A stretch of DNA of 64,000 nucleotides from Chthoniobacterales bacterium. GTDB taxonomy: Bacteria; Verrucomicrobiota; Verrucomicrobiia; Chthoniobacterales; JACTMZ01. The stretch spans positions 1 to 64,000 of the forward strand of contig JACSRX010000025.1 of the NCBI GenBank assembly GCA_014879535.1. Direction: 5' to 3'. Numbering within the stretch: the first letter of the stretch is position 1; each line of letters begins with the position of its first letter. A program made the translations under genes and the position numbers. Positions 1,355-58,639 of the stretch are shown here, piece after piece. The notes beneath the pieces are model-generated. The model did not search any database and was not told the DNA's origin. It worked only from the letters and a program-made list of their open reading frames with translations.

Positions 1355-2228
1355 GGAGAACGAAGGGGTGGAAGTCGGCACGACCGGAAAGGCTGGCCAC
1401 AAAGGATTCGACCATGAGGCGTATGATCGTGCGCAAACGGTAGTTGCCATCGCGGTATCGGAAGGGGGTTTCCAACATCTCGGCAAAGCGTCCCGCGAGC
1501 AGGCGCGGCTCTTTCACTTGGTCAAGATGGCGGACGACGGTGAGCTCGACTGTGCAGCGCAGGGGCTCGATGAGATCGCATACGAGGCTCGGGCGGTTGC
1601 GGCGGAGCCGATGGATGAGGCCCACGGTCGGCTCCAAGCCGCTGGCGAGGCATTGCCACTCGATGGCGTGGTAGAGAAAGCCGTAACCGTAATTGAGAGC
1701 GGCGTTGAGCGGGCGGGTGGGCTTGCGTTTTTCACGCTGGAAAAGGTCGTCCGAGAGCGCCGAGAAGTAGCGCGGCCAGAAGTAGCGGGAATATTGTGCC
1801 TCGAGCCGGAGAATTCGGCTGAAGGAATTCTCCTTCAGGCGGGGTTTTTCCGGCAGGAGGGGATCGAACGAGCGCAGCATCTGGTGCTGATTGCAAACCT
1901 TGGTCCAGAGAAGGGCATTGGCAAGTTGAGTGGCCTGCGGAGGGGACAGGCGGCAAAGCCTCCAAAGGGCGTCGGGATTGACGTGCCTCGCACGCCGGGC
2001 AAGCGAGAAGGTGCGCCACTTGGCCGTGTGTTTGTCCCAACGCGCCATGATGCATGGACACTGCGAAGACAGAAATTCCAAAGCGCTTTGCGACCAACGG
2101 GCCTCGGCGGAAAAGCACTGGACGCTGCCCAAGCTCTGGATTGCTATTCGGCGCGAGCCGGAGACCAGCTTTCCGTCCTGAATGTGGAAGACGGGACGTT
2201 CGCCGAGCAGGACGAGATGGTGGATCAC
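1332..2228 (-). CDS. cas1: CRISPR-associated integrase Cas1 (locus 1)
   Basis: A 298-aa type II Cas1, the metal-dependent integrase that inserts new spacers at the array. The active-site residues E143 (in RLEAQYSRYF), H206 (GLIHRL) and E221 (CDLIEP) are all present, at spacing similar to other type II Cas1 proteins. Translation appears to start at a GTG (2228-2226) whose last two bases are the start of the cas9 TGA stop, a GTGA overlap. That implies termination-reinitiation coupling and probably low Cas1 yield relative to Cas9. Together with Cas2 it would handle mostly 32-nt spacers, judging from the adjacent array. Confidence 0.96.
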   Translation of the reverse strand: MIHHLVLLGERPVFHIQDGKLVSGSRRIAIQSLGSVQCFSAEARWSQSALEFLSSQCPCIMARWDKHTAKWRTFSLARRARHVNPDALWRLCRLSPPQATQLANALLWTKVCNQHQMLRSFDPLLPEKPRLKENSFSRILRLEAQYSRYFWPRYFSALSDDLFQREKRKPTRPLNAALNYGYGFLYHAIEWQCLASGLEPTVGLIHRLRRNRPSLVCDLIEPLRCTVELTVVRHLDQVKEPRLLAGRFAEMLETPFRYRDGNYRLRTIIRLMVESFVASLSGRADFHPFVLHARDACV

Positions 2229-5200
2229 GGCCCGCGCAGGAGCATGGCAAGACTTGAGGCGCTTTGCTGCTCCTTAACGAACGCTGCAGCAGGAAGGTCT
2301 GGGAAGGGCCAGTTTTCGAGAGAATTTGTAGTGGGCGGTTTAACGGTGGCTAATTTGAACTCCACACTGCCCTTAGATTTCAGCGCCGTCACGCGATACC
2401 AATGGATGACGTAGGCACCTTCGAACGAATCTGCCACCGCCCCGTCTTTCTTCAGCGGGACTTTCAGGACCATGCCCTTCTCAAAATGGCCGATCTTCTT
2501 TGAAAATGGCGGCAGCGGGCCAGATATCCGGCTGCGCCACGTGCCGCCGTCGGGGTGTTTGCTGCGCCAGACGCGTTCACCGTGCGTCCGGCGGAGGTTC
2601 ACGAGACAGCGCGGGTGGGGGATTACTCGCGTGGCGAGTTTTTCCTGTCCATTTTTGACGGAGCGCCACACCTCAATTCGCCAATTGGCCTCGGTAGCCA
2701 CACGCATGCCGATGGCTTTCCCGTGGTCGTTGCGATGGGTGATGCGGGTGACGTCTGTTCCCGCCTTCTGGGCAGCCAGCGGCAGTGATCGGACAGGAGT
2801 TCCATCGCGGAGCTTCAAGGGCTCGGCACCCTCGTCGGTGAGCCAGCGGTGAATCGCCTTCACCGACGGAATCTTGTGTTCTGGAATCTGTGCAAAGCGA
2901 AGAGCTTCAGACAAGGCGTGTGCATCGTGGGCGGGCTTCTCGCCTTTCACCAGAGGTTTGCGGATGAAGTAACGTCCGGACGGGTCTTTGCCGTAGATGG
3001 ACTTGTCGAATCGGCTCTGCTTGGAATTGGAACGCCGAGGGTGCTCCACGGGACACTCGCTGTTCCGTGACTCCGGCGCAGACAAATCGGGACAGAGCGG
3101 CAATGCGCGCATTTTAGTGCTGGAGGCATCCTCCGGATTTGCATGGTAGAAGATGCCGCCGTAATCGATGGTGTTCAGACCCTTCCCGGGCGGAATGAAG
3201 CTCACGGTGATGGCATCCCAAAGGTGATGGGTGAGGTCACCACGGTTCTTGGAAGGAATCTGGTCGCGCCATGCACGGCGGCAAACCGCTGTGTGCAAAC
3301 CTGTCGGCGTGCCAATGCGCCGGGCCGTGGCGGAGACATCACCGGCGATGCCGAGCCACGCCGCAGTGGCTTCACGCAACTCGCGGGCAATCTGGCTCTG
3401 GCGGGTGAGATTGCCCCAGTCGGGACATTCGCTGCTGACCCGAAGTTGCTCGAAGATATGGCGCTTGCTGCGCGGGAGGCCTTCGGGATCGATGGCGCCC
3501 CATTTCATCGGCTTCACGACTTCAAGGATGGCCGCCCAATCAAGCGGCAGGAGCCCCGCCTGTGCCGCCTCGAAGGGGAGGCGCCGTCCTTTGGCGGCGT
3601 TGCAGGCGCGGTGCGCGAGGACCAAATTCCGCCGTTCGCTGGTTCCACCCTTCGTGTTTGGAAAGATGTGATCGAGGTCCAGTCCGTGGTCTTGTGGAGA
3701 ACCCATGGTTTTGCCGCAATAAGGACACAGGCCGCGCTGCTGGTCAAAAAGGTCGAGCTTCAAAGCCGTCGCTCCTCTGCGCTCACCGGGATCGATTCCA
3801 AACTCGGCGGCAAGCTTCTCCTTGCGCTTGCGCGCATCTGCTTGGGCTTTCTTGATCTCATTGGCTTCCCGCTTGTTCCGTGCGGCGCCGCCAACCACTT
3901 CGATGACGACATAGTCGGGGCGATCGCATCCGGCGGCTTCCCGCACGGAGGGCATCGCAAACAAACGCTGCAGATAGCCCTCCCTCCGGCCTTCGCGCCC
4001 AAGCAGGAATTCAACCTGCGGCGAGGTGATGTGCTGCCTTTGCTGGCCGATACGAGCCTTTCGATAGTCAGCCAGATGCACCGAGATGAAGTCCTTGGAC
4101 CAATCTCCCGCGGCTGCGATCGGAGCAACCAGCGTCTCGGCAACCTCCGCAGACAACCGGGCGCGCTTGTCCATCGCGGAGCGGCGTTGCGCGAGCAGGT
4201 CCTTCAATTGCTTGAAGTAGTCTTCGTTGACCACCGATTTGGGCTCCAACTTCAAAGCCTGCCGGCCGGTCAACCCCAGGATGCCATTCAGCACCTCCAC
4301 CAAGGTCTTCTTGAGTTCCTTCAGGTCGAGCTTCGGGCGCGGCTGGCCCGATGCCACGGCAGCAAGATCGGTATCCAAAAGGGACAATGCATGCCCGTTG
4401 AATGTTGCCGGGGCGTGGTGGAGCATCCCGTCGTTTGCCGCAAACCGGCGCGAGGCAAGAAAGTCGAGCAGGTTGAGCCGGCGCACCGCAGGATCGCCGG
4501 CCATCGCACGGGGAAGATCATTGCGACCGAGCAGTGCTGGAGCAAATCCGCAAAGTCCCGCCTTGGATCGGGCATGCGCGAGGCGCTCCGCTTCATTTTT
4601 CCGCTCGTGATTGATGATGGCACGCAGCTTTGGCAGGACGGCCTCCAGCTGTTCCGGTCCTCCGAAAAATGCGGCATGACGCCGGCAGATCGTCTCGAGA
4701 TGATCGAGCACATGTTCCCTCGGCCAGGCATTGCCACGAAAGCGTGGGCGTTCGGATGCGTCGCGCGAGTTGAGATGGCGGTTCAACACATTCTCGATGC
4801 TGCGACCGCTGCTTTGGAGGATCACATCGACAAGCAATCGCTCGAACTCATCGCGTTCTTCATCTTTCCATTCCAAGTCCTCGGATTGCAGACGCAGCAG
4901 ATCGGCGACCTTCTCGTCGCAATAGGCCGCTTTCAACCATGCCTTGGCAGCTTTGTAGGCAGGCGTGTCACCCCACAGGAACGCGCCTTCCCCGTGCATA
5001 TGGTAGGAAAAGCCACGGTGCGCCACGATGTGCCGCAGGCATTGGACCAAGGCATGCGGGCTCGCAAGCCGTCCCTGCAACCCGCGCCAACGGTGCTCCA
5101 GCACACGCTTCGTCACCGGCGTCCATGCGCCCGGCAGATGCTTTTCACAAAAGAGTCTCAGCAGAAAATCCCGGTGCTTCCGACGGCGTCGGCAGCGGCG

Positions 5201-5404
5201 CGATGAACGAAGGAGTCGCCGTCCTTCCAGCGCCGCGGAATCTTCCAACTCACGGATGAGTGTGCGTCGAAAGATGATTTGTGGACCGCGCCGCACACAC
5301 ACACCAATCCCTTCAAGGCCGATGTCGATGCCCATGACGACCGCATCCTTGTAGAATTCATCTTCCCGCCAGCGGCGCGCTGCGATTTCGATTGGTATAG
5401 GCAT
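2225..5404 (-). CDS. cas9: Cas9 RNA-guided endonuclease, type II-C (locus 1)
   Basis: A 1059-aa compact Cas9. In order: RuvC-I with D27 (VMGIDIGLEG); an arginine-rich bridge helix around residues 62-85; the recognition lobe; RuvC-II with E502 (DYVVIEVVGG); an HNH domain with CPYCG, catalytic H579 in LDLDHIFPN and the CNAAKG finger end; RuvC-III with H726-H727 and D730 (HHLWDAITV); and a C-terminal PAM-interacting region. All catalytic residues are present, so a nuclease-competent enzyme is expected. Length, operon order cas9-cas1-cas2 and absence of csn2/cas4 indicate subtype II-C. The start at 5404 has GAGG about 10 nt upstream. A predicted tracrRNA starts just upstream on the opposite strand, so the cas9 mRNA leader would be antisense to it. 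The protein is clearly distinct from the second Cas9 in this window. Confidence 0.97.
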   Translation of the reverse strand: MPIPIEIAARRWREDEFYKDAVVMGIDIGLEGIGVCVRRGPQIIFRRTLIRELEDSAALEGRRLLRSSRRCRRRRKHRDFLLRLFCEKHLPGAWTPVTKRVLEHRWRGLQGRLASPHALVQCLRHIVAHRGFSYHMHGEGAFLWGDTPAYKAAKAWLKAAYCDEKVADLLRLQSEDLEWKDEERDEFERLLVDVILQSSGRSIENVLNRHLNSRDASERPRFRGNAWPREHVLDHLETICRRHAAFFGGPEQLEAVLPKLRAIINHERKNEAERLAHARSKAGLCGFAPALLGRNDLPRAMAGDPAVRRLNLLDFLASRRFAANDGMLHHAPATFNGHALSLLDTDLAAVASGQPRPKLDLKELKKTLVEVLNGILGLTGRQALKLEPKSVVNEDYFKQLKDLLAQRRSAMDKRARLSAEVAETLVAPIAAAGDWSKDFISVHLADYRKARIGQQRQHITSPQVEFLLGREGRREGYLQRLFAMPSVREAAGCDRPDYVVIEVVGGAARNKREANEIKKAQADARKRKEKLAAEFGIDPGERRGATALKLDLFDQQRGLCPYCGKTMGSPQDHGLDLDHIFPNTKGGTSERRNLVLAHRACNAAKGRRLPFEAAQAGLLPLDWAAILEVVKPMKWGAIDPEGLPRSKRHIFEQLRVSSECPDWGNLTRQSQIARELREATAAWLGIAGDVSATARRIGTPTGLHTAVCRRAWRDQIPSKNRGDLTHHLWDAITVSFIPPGKGLNTIDYGGIFYHANPEDASSTKMRALPLCPDLSAPESRNSECPVEHPRRSNSKQSRFDKSIYGKDPSGRYFIRKPLVKGEKPAHDAHALSEALRFAQIPEHKIPSVKAIHRWLTDEGAEPLKLRDGTPVRSLPLAAQKAGTDVTRITHRNDHGKAIGMRVATEANWRIEVWRSVKNGQEKLATRVIPHPRCLVNLRRTHGERVWRSKHPDGGTWRSRISGPLPPFSKKIGHFEKGMVLKVPLKKDGAVADSFEGAYVIHWYRVTALKSKGSVEFKLATVKPPTTNSLENWPFPDLPAAAFVKEQQSASSLAMLLRGP

Positions 5405-5434
5405 GTTGACAGAACCTCGGGTTGGAGTTATGAA
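5394..5434 (+). promoter_or_regulatory. candidate promoters for tracrRNA 1
   Basis: Two overlapping options are visible. A consensus -35 TTGACA (5406-5411), 17-bp spacer and -10 TATGAA (5429-5434) would start RNA near 5441, directly at the exact anti-repeat. An extended -10 TGG-TATAGG (5393-5401) inside the antisense of the cas9 start would start RNA near 5408 and include the longer imperfect anti-repeat. The sequence does not decide between them. Confidence 0.5.
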
Positions 5435-5536
5435 ACGTTCAGATCAAAACCTGTGGGCCCTTCGGGGATAGTTGGCAGAGGGCAAAGCTCAAAACCCACA
5501 ACTCTGCAACGGGCCTTTCGCAGGCCCTTTTTTTTT
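5409..5536 (+). ncRNA. predicted tracrRNA 1
   Basis: Bases 5442-5450 (GATCAAAAC) are the exact reverse complement of the first nine bases of the array-1 repeat. Upstream, 5415-5427 (CCTCGGGTTGGAG) can pair with the repeat's CTCCCATCGGAGC at 10 of 13 positions including one G-U, and CAGA at 5410-5413 adds more. A 14-nt unpaired segment separates the two blocks. Downstream are a CCC-UUCG-GGG hairpin (5458-5467) in nexus position, a stem GCAGAG/CTCTGC (5475-5480/5502-5507) extended by GTT/AAC, and a terminator. The 5' end may be 5441 instead, depending on promoter. It is transcribed divergently from cas9, with its start 5-40 nt from the cas9 start codon. The call rests on repeat complementarity plus the terminator; no expression data are available. 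Confidence 0.75.
5511..5536 (+). terminator. Rho-independent terminator of tracrRNA 1
   Basis: GGGCC (5511-5515) pairs with GGCCC (5523-5527) and is followed at once by nine T residues (5528-5536). It works only on the plus strand, which supports plus-strand transcription of the tracrRNA. Confidence 0.85.
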
Positions 5537-5618
5537 GCGATTCCGGTGGGGCGAGGCTCAGGGTTGAGCATGCCGTGAGCGTGGGGAATCAGCTTATTGC
5601 TTGGCAAGAGCAAGCGGA

Positions 5619-52901: not shown

Positions 52902-54059
52902 GTTTTGACTTCACCCCTCAGCGAGGTCTGACACACTAGGGCTGGTTGACGCTCATGTCGTCGCACTGTTTTGACTTCACCCCTCAGCGAGGTCTGACAC
53001 ACTATCCAGAGCGTTGCGGCCGTGGTGGAAGGTGTTTTGACTTCACCCCTCAGCGAGGTCTGACACACTCCAGCGGCGCTGATTGCGGATGCATTGGCTG
53101 TTTTGACTTCACCCCTCAGCGAGGTCTGACACACTGCCAACGTCTTCCACGGAAACACAGTTGTCGTTTTGACTTCACCCCTCAGCGAGGTCTGACACAC
53201 TCTATGCGGATTTCCCGCGCCCCACGGAGCAGTTTTGACTTCACCCCTCAGCGAGGTCTGACACACTTTCGCGGTGGGCGGCGGCGAATGTCGGATAGTT
53301 TTGACTTCACCCCTCAGCGAGGTCTGACACACTGCCGGACGACTACTTCCGCACGCACTCCCTGTTTTGACTTCACCCCTCAGCGAGGTCTGACACACTA
53401 AGGTCTTTCACGAACTCGCGCCAGCAATGTTTTGACTTCACCCCTCAGCGAGGTCTGACACACTAGAAGCGAACCACAAACACACTACACACAAGTTTTG
53501 ACTTCACCCCTCAGCGAGGTCTGACACACTTTCCATCCACGCATCGAAGTACTCCTGGTTGTTTTGACTTCACCCCTCAGCGAGGTCTGACACACTTACG
53601 AGCGACCGCACGATCAAACGCTGGGTGTTTTGACTTCACCCCTCAGCGAGGTCTGACACACTGGTGGCGTCGATGGAGTTCGAGTGGCTCTTGTTTTGAC
53701 TTCACCCCTCAGCGAGGTCTGACACACTGTCGCCGGCCAGCGAGTAGGCAAACCCGCTGTTTTGACTTCACCCCTCAGCGAGGTCTGACACACTGCCACT
53801 GACCATAGCTCAACAATCGGACTTGTTTTGACTTCACCCCTCAGCGAGGTCTGACACACTTCTCTCAACTCTCATCCCTCAACTGTTCCCGTTTTGACTT
53901 CACCCCTCAGCGAGGTCTGACACACTGCCTCCGCATGTTCACAAAGCAGGCGGACATGTTTTGACTTCACCCCTCAGCGAGGTCTGACACACTCTCTTTG
54001 GAAGAGGCGAAGGCGCACCTGCGGTTTTGACTTCACCCCTCAGCGAGGTCTGACACACT
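52902..54059 (+). CRISPR. CRISPR array 2 (type II-C locus 2), complete
   Basis: Eighteen identical 36-nt repeats begin GTTTTGACTTCACC and end GTCTGACACACT. They start at 52902, 52968, 53034, 53100, 53166, 53232, 53298, 53364, 53429, 53495, 53561, 53627, 53693, 53759, 53825, 53891, 53958 and 54024. The 17 spacers are unique and 30 nt long, except one of 29 and one of 31. The palindrome CCTC-AGC-GAGG lies in the repeat. Plus-strand crRNA orientation is set by the GTTTTG start and by the adjacent plus-strand tracrRNA whose anti-repeat matches. No repeat is degenerate. On the 5' side only 14 bp separate the array from oppC, so there is no room for a normal leader there. Confidence 0.99.
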
Positions 54060-54063
54060 CTGA

Positions 54064-54091
54064 TTGACAGAAAGACCTATCGTTGTAGTCT
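54064..54091 (+). promoter_or_regulatory. candidate promoter of tracrRNA 2
   Basis: TTGACA (54064-54069), 16-bp spacer and TAGTCT (54086-54091), placing the start near 54097, just before the anti-repeat. It begins four bases after the last repeat. Confidence 0.55.
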
Positions 54092-54096
54092 TTGAG

Positions 54097-54179
54097 TCGA
54101 CTTTGCTGAGGGGTGAAGTCTTAACTGAAAAAGCGGCTTCCGGACCACTGCTTGCACGTCCGGAAGCCGCTCTTTTTTT
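54097..54179 (+). ncRNA. predicted compact tracrRNA 2
   Basis: Bases 54105-54120 (GCTGAGGGGTGAAGTC) are the exact reverse complement of repeat positions 6-21, and 54099-54104 (GACTTT) continue the pairing with two G-U pairs, giving a 22-bp duplex. Bases 54121-54125 (TTAAC) then pair with the repeat start at three of five positions. After a short A-rich linker there is only one structure, a 14-bp perfect hairpin with a T7 tail. No separate nexus-like hairpin is visible, so the RNA would be about 83 nt, shorter and simpler than most tracrRNAs. It lies between the array and cas2. The call rests on complementarity and the terminator. Confidence 0.8.
54132..54179. terminator. bidirectional terminator between tracrRNA 2 and cas2
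   Basis: AGCGGCTTCCGGAC (54132-54145) pairs perfectly with GTCCGGAAGCCGCT (54158-54171) around a 12-nt loop. On the plus strand seven T residues follow (54173-54179); on the minus strand the stem is followed by five T residues. The plus-strand T-run overlaps the cas2 TAA stop. Confidence 0.9.
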
Positions 54180-54519
54180 ACCAGAACTCAATCTGCTGGG
54201 GCATCGTGGGATCAAGCACCCGATTTCCTTGCGGATAGTTCTGGCCATGGATGCTCATGCTGCGAGCCCACTGCTGGTTCGTGAAAAAGAAGACACGAAT
54301 GTTTCCGGCGGTGGGCGCGATGGATCGCAGGTAGAAGGCGTGCCTCTCCAACCGCTCAAGGCTGACGCACGCGCGGGCATAAACGGAAAACTGGAGCATC
54401 ATGTAACCATCCTCCAAGAGCGCATTCCTGAACCCGGTCGCAGCTTTCCTTTGCTGGTCTGTCATGACCGGGAGGTCGAAAGAGACAAGAATCCAACCCA
54501 TGCGAAAACTGCTGTTCAT
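54178..54519 (-). CDS. cas2: CRISPR-associated endonuclease Cas2 (locus 2)
   Basis: A 113-aa Cas2. The first strand and conserved Asp are in GWILVSFDLPV (D15), followed by MMLQFSVYARAC and NIRVFFFTNQQW. The ATG at 54519 overlaps the cas1 TGA (ATGA), which decides the start; an internal ATG at 54501 would give a shorter N-terminus. The C-terminal tail after the ferredoxin fold is longer than in the locus-1 Cas2, and the two proteins share little sequence. Its stop codon lies inside the terminator of tracrRNA 2. Confidence 0.93.
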   Translation of the reverse strand: MNSSFRMGWILVSFDLPVMTDQQRKAATGFRNALLEDGYMMLQFSVYARACVSLERLERHAFYLRSIAPTAGNIRVFFFTNQQWARSMSIHGQNYPQGNRVLDPTMPQQIEFW

Positions 54520-55427
54520 GCCGGGGCACCCATCACCGGCAACCAAAGCTCTGTAGCATCGTGCTTGGCGTAGGCTCGCGCCAAGGAGGATGCCGCCTTA
54601 TCGATGGCATCCATCAGCTTCATGCTCCCCGGTCCATGCTGGATGCGGTGGTTTCTGAGTGCCTGCGCAACGGATCGGGCCCAACTGGACATATCCGTGC
54701 CATGTGTGCGGATGTGCGCGGCCATCGCCGAGTCAACAAAAGCACGAAACGGTTCGACGAAGTCGTGAACAAGCGGAATGGCTCGGTAACGGCTGCGGTG
54801 ATGGAGTCCGATGGCGGGCTGCAATCCATGCACAAGCAAGCTGCGGTGACAAAGCGCGGAAATGACAGCGTAACCATAGTTCAACATGTGGTTTGGACTT
54901 GGTTCGTCCCTCTGCTCCCGTCGCCGCAGTCGAGGCCAGCCGAGGCTGCTGAAAAGTCGTCGCCAATAGTGCCTGGCACAGTTGCCCTCGTGTGGGCATT
55001 TCGACTGTGACGCATTCTCCAGAAAGGCGCTTGGGATGCCAAGCAACCGGAGACAAGCGGCTTGGTTTGCGAGTTTGCCGACGAGGATGATTCGCCACAA
55101 CCGGTCGTTGAACCCTGCGCGATGATGAATTTGACCCAAGAAAGCCTCATGGCTGGCCACACGAAACAGCGGCACGGAAAGTCCGCATGGCTTGTATCTG
55201 GCGTTGCTGTGCAGAATCACAGCGTCAGCGTCGAGTATGGCACTCATCGCCTCGGCACTGAAAGACACTCCGCGAGCCGCCACTACAACCGCGCGCAAGT
55301 CCTGCACAGGCAGGCGTCTCCTGTTCCCTTCCGGCGTGAGGCATACTAACTGCTGCCTTTCCATAAGCAGCCGTGCCCCGTGCGAAACTACATGGACAAT
55401 GTGATGGCCCACGAAAAGGCCCCTCAA
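54516..55427 (-). CDS. cas1: CRISPR-associated integrase Cas1 (locus 2)
   Basis: A 303-aa type II Cas1 with E147 (CPHEGNCARHYW), H210 (GLHHRSRY) and E225 (HDFVEPFR). Translation appears to start at a TTG (55427-55425) overlapping the cas9 stop by 4 bp (TTGA), mirroring the GTGA junction at locus 1. Overall sequence differs strongly from the locus-1 Cas1, apart from active-site blocks and the NYGYA region. The array beside it has mostly 30-nt spacers. Confidence 0.95.
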   Translation of the reverse strand: MRGLFVGHHIVHVVSHGARLLMERQQLVCLTPEGNRRRLPVQDLRAVVVAARGVSFSAEAMSAILDADAVILHSNARYKPCGLSVPLFRVASHEAFLGQIHHRAGFNDRLWRIILVGKLANQAACLRLLGIPSAFLENASQSKCPHEGNCARHYWRRLFSSLGWPRLRRREQRDEPSPNHMLNYGYAVISALCHRSLLVHGLQPAIGLHHRSRYRAIPLVHDFVEPFRAFVDSAMAAHIRTHGTDMSSWARSVAQALRNHRIQHGPGSMKLMDAIDKAASSLARAYAKHDATELWLPVMGAPA

Positions 55428-58400
55428 ACCCTCGAAAGGCCTGCAACCAAGAGGGCGCGCAGGTGGAGGGCAACGCGCTTGCCGTTGGGTTCCTCCAGCA
55501 CGACCTGCCCGTTCGCCGTCTGAACCGTGCGCCAGATGTAGATGCCAGCGGGGAGACTCCGGTCAGGCAACACCCTCCTCGCCTTCTTGGCCTCGTTGAG
55601 CTCGATCCTGCGGTAGCCAGACGCGGGGACCTCGCGGGTCAGCGAAACCAAGCATCCTGTCTGCACGAATCCATGAATGACAGTCCCGGGCGTCTCCCGC
55701 AAAAGCCTCGTCTGCCCGACCACGGAGGCATGCGCGTAGATGGGCGCGATGCACGGTCGCCCCGAAGCATCCGAATACAAAATCTGCCCGCGGTGCCCGT
55801 CCTTTCCGCGCCGGTAGGCCCCGGTCCCATCCTTCGAAAGATCGGCGTATTCGTCCGGCTCACCGACATTCATGTTGACCCGAATGACACGAGGGCCGGG
55901 CGTCCCATCCCTCCGTGGCACATGCAAGCCTTCACAGAACGTGCGCCAGCCCTCCTCTGTCAGATCCTCGTTGGCAACCGCAGCGAGGATGCTCTGAATC
56001 TTGGGATCACGGACGGCCTTGATCTGCTTCTTGAGATATCCGACGTCGAAAACCGACTTTCCGGGAGCTGAGGGTCTCATGGCCAGGGAAAGGAGGGCGC
56101 ATCGCTGCACGATGGTGCGTTCGGGCCCACGGCGGCGGGCTCCGAAGATGGTGTCAGCCAAGGCGGCCTTCTCAAAAGCCACCTGTCGCGGAGCAACCCG
56201 GTCGATGACCGCCCCAAGGGCCGCTCGCGGGTTGCTGCCTAAGGCCTTCGGAAAGCGGAAAAATCGTTCCTTCGCCTCGTTGCGCACCCACTGGGGAATG
56301 AAATTGATCACCATGGCATCCAACGCGTGGTGCCTTTTGTCACTGCGGTTCTTCTCCGCCTTGCTTTCCCACTCCATCGGATCAGCATCGGCTGGGGGCG
56401 GAGCCAGAAGACTGTTGAGGCGGTATTTGCGCCGTATGCGTGCGGTAAGACCGCCTTGGACGAAAACCACGCGTTTGCGACCTTCTCTGTCCACGCCGTT
56501 GCGCCATCCGAAGGTAGCGTCGAGAACAGCGCGAGCCAGACGACTGATCCATGCCGTCTCTGCCAGCGTGGTGTATTTCTCAACCAACTCTTCGGCATCC
56601 TGCGAGGTGAGCAAGCGCACCTTGCGGCTGCGCAGTTGTGATGACCGGCCCTTCACGCGTTGCAGGTAGGCCTCCCAGCCGGGTGATGGAGAGAGCCATT
56701 CGAACGGTGTCATGGCCTGCTTCGAGTCCTTGTTTGTGTGCCGCGTGGTCAGCACGCGATTGTAAGGGGCATCCGGTCCCATTCTTGAGTGCGGCACGAT
56801 GTGGTCGATCTCATACGAATCGATCTTGGCCACATCCAAAGGCTCGCCGGTGTAAAGACAGATGCCACCCTGTTCCTTGAAGAGGGACAGCTTGAGGGCC
56901 GCTCCCTTGCCGGAAAGTCCAGCGGCTTCCGCATCCTTGCGCGATTGCTCGCGCAGCTTCGCCTGCCCGCTGGTGAATTTGCTGTATTCCCTCCGCGCCT
57001 TCTCGCCCATGAAGTCCCAACGCACAAATTCCAGCGCAACCGTCTGTGGTTCCCCAAACTGCACGCGCAATTGCTGCAATCTCTCAAAGAAGAGTTGCAG
57101 GCGGTGGCGGACGATGGGGTTGTTCTGCCTGCCGATGATTTCCCGGACCGCCATTCCCGGCGAGGACGCCATCTGCAACACCGCATCAAGCTGCTGGTCG
57201 GGAACGTGCAGCGTCTCCCAGCTGTCACCCATCTTGTGAAGGAACTCGAGGTCGGACGGCACCAGACCTTTGAGCGGGTCGGCGTTCCCACCCAGACGCG
57301 CCAACTCATCGGCATGAAACCGGCTCGGGGCCTGCCCTGAGAGAATCAACCGCTTGAGGATTTCCAACGCCGGCCGACAGAACCGGCTGCGCCCGCCGGT
57401 GCGGGGCGGCTTCACTTCCTCATGGCCGGTCAGGGGCACAAGGCCGAATCTTGCCATGGCGCGGACCCATTGTTTCGCGGTGAAGGACCAAGTCTTGCGC
57501 TTCGGGTCATCAAAAATCGCCCGAATCTCCTCCGGCCTCAAGGCGCGTTGCATGCCATCGGGCTGAGCGGCCCTCATGTTCTTCAGCTTCAGCAAGAAAA
57601 CTGAATCAAAGACAACACGGCTCTGCGGTGAAGGGTTCGTGGCGGTTTCCGCCGAAATTTTGCACACATTCAACCGCGGAATGAGGGCGCACTTGCAGAT
57701 GATCCGATTGTCAAACCGGGGAATGCGCTGCGACAAAACGCCTTGGGTGTCGGTATGACTGCCAAGACGGAGCCCATGCGCCTTCCTCAGTTCCGGATAC
57801 CATGAGGCGTAGGGGCGGCCAGCCGGTCCATGGAGCAGGCAGGCCTCCTTGCCTCGAAGTCCCGGGATCAACTTGGCCGCCGCTGCGACAAGCAGGTGCA
57901 GCTCCTTTTCAACCAATGCGCGGGGAATAACGTGGTTCCGGGGACTGCGGGCATGGCAGTCGATTCGCAGCGAGAGCTTGTCCGGCCTCTTCGGATTCCA
58001 GAGCCCCATCTTCCAAGCATCGAAATAGCAAGGAAGCCAGAAGGCCTCCTCCGTCGTCATCTCGCGCAACTCTGCCTCAAACCGCAACAGCCTCGAATTG
58101 TCTTCCTCATGCTCCTTCAACTCATCGGCCGAAGCATGTCTCAGGGCCTTGGCCTTCCAAGGGATGTCGGGATCGTAGCCCCGGCGCTGGATGGCGGATC
58201 GCAAAGCCTTGTAGATTTGCCAAGGCTCCAGCGCCTCACCGAGGAGAAGCTTGATCCTCAGCAGGCAGGACGTGTAGCAGGTGCTCTCACCCTTTGCGGG
58301 AAACTCCCTCTCCAATCGCGGGTCGCCGGGTGACTTCAACTCGTAACGACCGGTTTGTGGGTTGCGCCATGTCGTCCTTGTCGCGGGCGGTTCATGTCCC

Positions 58401-58639
58401 GACTCCCTCCAAACCTTCTCCAGCCACTCCTCACGCTTCTTGTGTGCATTGCGTGACCTCAGCATTCGTCTGGCAATAGCCGCGGCCTTCGTCCCGGCAA
58501 ACTCGGCAGGCAGCAAAAGAGACTCCACATGCTTGAACTCGCTGGTGCTCTCTTCGCGAACCGCCTCGCCAAGTGAGCCGATTCCGATATCAAATGACCA
58601 CACGTAACGGTTGGCTGGGGCTTCGTTCGAGTTATTCAT
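55424..58639 (-). CDS. cas9: Cas9 RNA-guided endonuclease, type II-C (locus 2)
   Basis: A 1071-aa compact Cas9. In order: RuvC-I with D17 (WSFDIGIGSLG); arginine-rich bridge helix (about residues 56-76, ARRMLRSRNAHKKREEWL); recognition lobe; RuvC-II with E537 (VALEFVRWDFMG); HNH with catalytic H613 in YEIDHIVPHSRMGPD and the asparagine in APYNRVLT; RuvC-III with HHALDA ending in D774; C-terminal PAM-interacting domain. All catalytic residues are present. The HNH core lacks the CxxC finger seen in the locus-1 enzyme, another sign of different ancestry. The start at 58639 gives MNNSNEAPANRYVWSFD. It is the first gene of the cas9-cas1-cas2 operon and lies downstream of psuG on the same strand. 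Confidence 0.97.
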   Translation of the reverse strand: MNNSNEAPANRYVWSFDIGIGSLGEAVREESTSEFKHVESLLLPAEFAGTKAAAIARRMLRSRNAHKKREEWLEKVWRESGHEPPATRTTWRNPQTGRYELKSPGDPRLEREFPAKGESTCYTSCLLRIKLLLGEALEPWQIYKALRSAIQRRGYDPDIPWKAKALRHASADELKEHEEDNSRLLRFEAELREMTTEEAFWLPCYFDAWKMGLWNPKRPDKLSLRIDCHARSPRNHVIPRALVEKELHLLVAAAAKLIPGLRGKEACLLHGPAGRPYASWYPELRKAHGLRLGSHTDTQGVLSQRIPRFDNRIICKCALIPRLNVCKISAETATNPSPQSRVVFDSVFLLKLKNMRAAQPDGMQRALRPEEIRAIFDDPKRKTWSFTAKQWVRAMARFGLVPLTGHEEVKPPRTGGRSRFCRPALEILKRLILSGQAPSRFHADELARLGGNADPLKGLVPSDLEFLHKMGDSWETLHVPDQQLDAVLQMASSPGMAVREIIGRQNNPIVRHRLQLFFERLQQLRVQFGEPQTVALEFVRWDFMGEKARREYSKFTSGQAKLREQSRKDAEAAGLSGKGAALKLSLFKEQGGICLYTGEPLDVAKIDSYEIDHIVPHSRMGPDAPYNRVLTTRHTNKDSKQAMTPFEWLSPSPGWEAYLQRVKGRSSQLRSRKVRLLTSQDAEELVEKYTTLAETAWISRLARAVLDATFGWRNGVDREGRKRVVFVQGGLTARIRRKYRLNSLLAPPPADADPMEWESKAEKNRSDKRHHALDAMVINFIPQWVRNEAKERFFRFPKALGSNPRAALGAVIDRVAPRQVAFEKAALADTIFGARRRGPERTIVQRCALLSLAMRPSAPGKSVFDVGYLKKQIKAVRDPKIQSILAAVANEDLTEEGWRTFCEGLHVPRRDGTPGPRVIRVNMNVGEPDEYADLSKDGTGAYRRGKDGHRGQILYSDASGRPCIAPIYAHASVVGQTRLLRETPGTVIHGFVQTGCLVSLTREVPASGYRRIELNEAKKARRVLPDRSLPAGIYIWRTVQTANGQVVLEEPNGKRVALHLRALLVAGLSRV

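Follow-up and report, generated by a model that had tools for sequence, protein, structure and literature searches.

The window, the 64,000-nt stretch of Chthoniobacterales DNA analysed here, carries two Cas9 systems. The second of these, locus 2, consists of a CRISPR array on the + strand (52902-54059), made up of 18 identical repeats of 36 nt (GTTTTGACTTCACCCCTCAGCGAGGTCTGACACACT), and a convergent cas operon on the - strand with cas9-2 (55424-58639), type II cas1 (54516-55427; Pfam PF01867, PADLOC Cas1_II), and cas2 (54178-54546; Pfam PF09827, PADLOC Cas2_II). The absence of csn2 and cas4 from this operon corresponds to the gene content of type II-C systems. An indigoidine synthase A-like gene is the upstream neighbour of cas9-2, and the array lies on the other side of the operon. 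The 1071-aa Cas9-2 has the HNH and split RuvC domains of a Cas9 (HNH_4 and RuvC_III in Pfam), including the catalytic motifs FDIG, LEF, IDH...N, and HHALD; its AlphaFold model (mean pLDDT 81, pTM 0.64) matches the Cas9 fold in structure comparison, with a best TM of about 0.45 and no close solved relative found.

The putative tracrRNA of locus 2

The + strand between the array's last repeat and the stop codon of cas2 holds a proposed RNA (54097-54179) that is almost certainly the tracrRNA of the neighbouring Verrucomicrobiota Cas9, Cas9-2. It contains what a tracrRNA is recognized by, an anti-repeat (54099-54125, +) that is complementary to the repeat, outside the cognate array, and near the cas genes. 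A sequence-only reading of the window had described a 22-bp duplex with 16 exact pairs in a row, and cofolding and the pairing string bear this out: pairing is continuous from 54099 to 54120, the core GCTGAGGGGTGAAGTC (54105-54120) matches the complement of the repeat at 16 of 16 positions, and six further pairs, two of them G-U, extend the duplex to 22. A 2x2 internal loop of U/U mismatches (54121-54122) follows, and then 3 bp with the 5' end of the repeat (54123-54125). Searching the window with a 20-nt repeat pattern and allowing up to 3 mismatches gives 19 matches, the 18 repeats and the anti-repeat, against 0.00 expected. Complementarity places the pairing of the tracrRNA in the 5' two-thirds of every repeat; RNase III presumably cuts this duplex, and Cas9-2 would bind the product.

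The tracrRNA is probably transcribed on the + strand, starting at the array's leader end. Directly after the last repeat is a TTGACA (54064-54069, +), which may be a -35-like element, a leader anchor, or both; in many relatives an AGG[TC]TTGAC[AG]GA-type sequence occupies its position. A scan for a consensus sigma-70 promoter of the tracrRNA found none, with no convincing -10 box. In the arrays of three relatives (L073, L105, and L108) and of the window (52902-54059), degenerate repeats are found at the end away from cas2, whereas on the tracrRNA side the last repeat is succeeded by the conserved AGG[TC]TTGAC[AG]GA-like sequence. The leader end, where acquisition takes place, thus seems to be the one next to the tracrRNA. 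Promoters inside repeats occur in type II-C systems, and the repeats of several relatives, for example L057 and L073, end in a -10-like box (CTATAAT, TTACAAT). The window repeat ends in ACACACT and has no such box, so its crRNAs may need another promoter.

The anti-repeat is followed by one predicted hairpin (54132-54171, +), the 14-bp stem of which had been noted from the letters and is confirmed here: the lower stem AGCGGCUUCCGGAC/GUCCGGAAGCCGCU pairs 54132-54145 with 54158-54171, and the 83-nt sequence has a folding energy z of -5.6, with 0 of 200 shuffles as good. Above the lower stem are an asymmetric internal loop, CAC (54146-54148) opposite C (54157), and the apex UGCUUGCA (54149-54156). 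The linker TGAAAA(A) and the 5' arm of the lower stem together make up the 20 nt (54126-54145, +) that separate the anti-repeat from the internal loop. A run of seven U (54173-54179, +), preceded by a C, forms the end of the candidate terminator and overlaps the stop codon of the opposite-strand cas2, which leaves little room for further non-coding structure on the 3' side. The length of about 83 nt holds for 54097-54179 as a sequence, although it depends on an arbitrary 5' end at 54097. The description "unusually short" does not hold: the tail after the anti-repeat is 54 nt, including the U-run, which is not extreme, and it is the architecture that is unusual. Presumably the tail of S. aureus-like sgRNAs after the anti-repeat is of about the same short length.

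Conservation across the Cas9-2 clade

A search of 84,980 species genomes for relatives of Cas9-2 returned 8 loci, each from a MAG whose title names Verrucomicrobia, Akkermansia, Pontiellaceae, or Methylacidiphilum. Further relatives came from order, phylum, and class searches, and the stretch from cas9 to the array was read wherever the contigs allowed. The clade set comprises 20 type II-C loci with 21 tracrRNAs, counting the window and a tandem pair in L054. No relatives were found in viral contigs; phage and plasmid records gave just distant HNH/RuvC matches.

Repeat pairing, synteny, covariation, fixed spacing, and restriction to one clade characterize this tracrRNA. In each of the 20 loci it lies downstream of cas2 on the opposite strand, and all 20 tracrRNAs with a known repeat pair with it in the same way: 3 bp come first, next a 2-nt mismatch of the U/U type, and beyond it at least 8 consecutive pairs. 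At some loci repeat and anti-repeat have changed together, and L073 and L074 keep the mismatch even with the repeat GTTCT and the anti-repeat CTCAAC. Together with the anti-repeat pairing and the synteny, this co-variation within the clade agrees, as far as sequence can show, with the assignment of the RNA to Cas9-2 in the sequence-only reading. The linker, of the type AACU(G/A)A, is nearly invariant, and in 21 of 21 tracrRNAs the internal loop starts exactly 20 nt after the anti-repeat. The internal loop is CAC or CUC in 20 of the 21 and UAC in L105, opposite a single C, and the apex in most cases reads UGC-NNN-GCA, with extended forms in L056, L077, L078, and L104.

The sequence of the lower stem varies while its pairing is retained. 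Covariation in relatives, which had been named as a check on the initial description, was measured on 14 hairpins with 12 lower-stem pairs counted: compensatory changes occur at 12 of 12 pairs, 97.1% of cells are paired, and the covariation score is 0.842, compared with 0.187 when the pairings are shuffled and no more than 0.144 when they are slid. These counts and the slid controls are independent of the covariance model R1, which was built from 14 sequences on the structure proposed in this analysis. L104 was left out of R1 owing to MAFFT misalignment and was later matched as a held-out sequence, as were L054 (twice), L056, L075, L077 (weakly), and L078.

R1 matches 12 of 384 genomes of the class, in all 12 at the cas locus of a Cas9 relative, and all 12 are among the 20 genomes of the class that have such a relative at E <= 1e-30. 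The eight R1-negative genomes comprise four (G086, G597, G604, and G631) whose Cas9 match is at or near a contig end, two (G662 and G772) of the two-hairpin group, and G601 and G694. A tree of 35 Cas9s places the 18 members labelled as single-hairpin inside one set of 19 with support of 100; the nineteenth, L055, is unlabelled and has no sequence past cas9. Some members of this clade have long Cas9 frames, of 1595 aa in L110 (4137-8921, -), 1216 aa in L109, and 1192 aa in L074; the usual length is about 1050 aa, and the long frames contain no Pfam domain beyond HNH and RuvC_III.

A longer second tracrRNA elsewhere in the genome could serve Cas9-2 and leave the 54097-54179 element a relic. Duplication does happen in the clade, as L054/L107 (4727-5105 in L054, 158-513 in L107) carries two tandem tracrRNA copies between array and cas2, and the genome of 3.17 Mb that was searched is 95.9% complete. 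Yet both tandem copies have the same single hairpin, and in relatives the element shows strong structural constraint. Moreover, the 16-nt core occurs in the genome in the 18 repeats and once in reverse, and nowhere else exactly. The second anti-repeat that would have told against the initial proposal was not found: no other 16-mer with 0 or 1 mismatch is present in this genome, and the sole site with 2 mismatches, on contig C22, reads as protein-coding sequence. Across the same 3.17 Mb the covariance model gives a single significant match, which is the element itself; no curated Rfam family matches the tracrRNA at the gathering score. A separate functional tracrRNA is consequently highly improbable, and the element at 54097-54179 is retained as the tracrRNA of Cas9-2.

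Interpretation of the single hairpin

In every clade member whose region is readable there is one hairpin after the duplex, which extends to the clade the earlier remark that the window has a single 3' hairpin and no separate nexus. By predicted secondary structure, the lineage lacks a separate nexus throughout. The Cas9-2 tracrRNA very likely has one bipartite hairpin that combines a nexus-position stem, a loop and apex read by Cas9, and an intrinsic terminator. The lower stem, 12-14 bp of free sequence ending in the asymmetric CNC/C loop, would occupy the position that the nexus has in other Cas9 guides; Cas9 would read the internal loop and, with its small and occasionally extended upper stem, the apex, at a fixed distance from the duplex; and the hairpin with its U-run would act as an intrinsic terminator as well, giving it a dual role.

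One competing account keeps to the terminator named in the sequence-only reading: the hairpin would be a Rho-independent terminator and nothing else, possibly shared with the convergent cas operon, and Cas9 would bind the duplex and the linker. It would explain the U-run that follows the stem in nearly all clade members, and in the window the A-run before the stem would supply the cas operon with a U-run too. A plain terminator, however, needs no conserved CNC/C loop, apex, or 20-nt spacing from the anti-repeat; conserved stem structure together with conserved loop sequence is the pattern expected of an RNA element that is read by a protein, not of a bare terminator. L079 has no U-run yet keeps the hairpin and its internal loop, and the reverse-strand U-run is not conserved among relatives, so that an explanation as a bidirectional terminator is rejected. 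A role in termination only is therefore quite unlikely.

By another account, a nexus is present but hidden from secondary-structure prediction: the AACUGA linker would take part in a triple helix, a pseudoknot, or a tertiary contact. A non-canonical nexus could go unseen, since folding programs do not capture tertiary structure, and the BlCas9 guide has a triple helix that was not predicted from its sequence (PMC11222456); the near invariance of the AACU(G/A)A linker would also fit. Complementarity between linker and apex, on the other hand, is not seen by eye, so that a pseudoknot between the two is rejected, and the coding end of cas2 after the U-run leaves little room for additional RNA elements. 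A hidden nexus is judged unlikely, if well short of negligible. Under the bipartite-hairpin interpretation, one hairpin probably takes on the functions of nexus, 3' hairpin, and terminator. The broader proposition, that the whole Cas9 lineage works without a separate nexus and with a bipartite hairpin that fuses these three and keeps its internal loop 20 nt from the anti-repeat, is somewhat favoured.

The rules of guide-RNA structure derive chiefly from work on Spy, Sau, Nme, and Cje, systems where the nexus is treated as standard. If the proposition is true, Cas9 guides do not in general require a two-part 3' scaffold, and a conserved natural family with one hairpin offers a clean test of which scaffold parts Cas9 really reads. 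It also suggests a simple guide design for Cas9s of about 1,050 aa, with single-hairpin guides that are probably orthogonal to those in common use, and the covariance model marks loci of the clade in genomes.

Other Cas9 guides and locus 1

The literature, its subscription papers thinly covered and an earlier description thus being possible, yielded no description of a single-hairpin Cas9 tracrRNA or of a Verrucomicrobiota tracrRNA, and the single-hairpin lineage is apparently undescribed. A 2023 survey reports that many predicted tracrRNAs are non-canonical and does not name a single-hairpin type (PMC10278012). In the collection of Gasiunas et al. (2020; PMC7606464) the S. aureus-like (clade V) sgRNAs are described as the shortest; they have two hairpins after the duplex, one nexus-like and then a larger one, where the window family has one.

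The type II-C tracrRNAs of the N. meningitidis kind were compared through a Pasteurella multocida plasmid (L125) and Ilyobacter (L127). Their anti-repeat likewise pairs with the 5' part of the repeat, and their terminal hairpins have the same asymmetric internal loop as the window (AACG-CUC-UGCCCC...GGGGCA-U-CGUU in L125 and AAGG-CUC-UAAACC...GGUUUA-U-CCUU in L127). The proportions are reversed, with a 4-bp lower stem and a long upper stem in these two and 14 bp followed by a tiny upper stem in the window, and L125 carries, after the anti-repeat and ahead of its terminal hairpin, a separate first stem-loop (GGCUUCUGAAAAGAAUGACC) that the window lacks. L111 and L112, of the same class, are probably the sister group of the single-hairpin set (support 87 in the 35-Cas9 tree). 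The hairpin that comes first after their anti-repeat shares the CAC/C loop (GCCCGUGG-CAC-UGCGUUGUCA-C-CCACGGGU in L112); unlike in the window, more structure follows, a possible GACC/GGUC pairing and a separate terminator hairpin, and R1 does not match their tracrRNA.

More than one structured element follows the anti-repeat in the outer Cas9s L113, L116, and L118 and in the plasmid-borne L125, L126, and L127, and the single-hairpin form therefore looks derived; this comparison rests on the clades in which a tracrRNA was found, as the anti-repeat search gave no clear one in L114 and L119-L121. Two routes of derivation may be considered: the first hairpin took over termination, which L111/L112 favours, or the terminal hairpin moved beside the duplex as the nexus was lost, which L125/L127 favours.

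The other system in the window, locus 1, has an array at 34 to 1020 and cas9-1 at 2225-5404 on the - strand; Cas9-1 falls in a distant clade of the 35-Cas9 tree. Its likely tracrRNA lies at 5406-5537 (+), a stretch with TTGACA (5406), 17 nt, TATGAA (5429), a perfect anti-repeat of just 9 nt (GATCAAAAC, 5442-5450), more than one further hairpin, and the terminator GGGCC...GGCCC-U9. The locus 1 array is immediately followed by a degenerate anti-repeat-like stretch (1037-1075, +; GAATAGCAG ... CACGATCACGAA), which is placed as the tracrRNA of locus 2 is and is possibly a relic.
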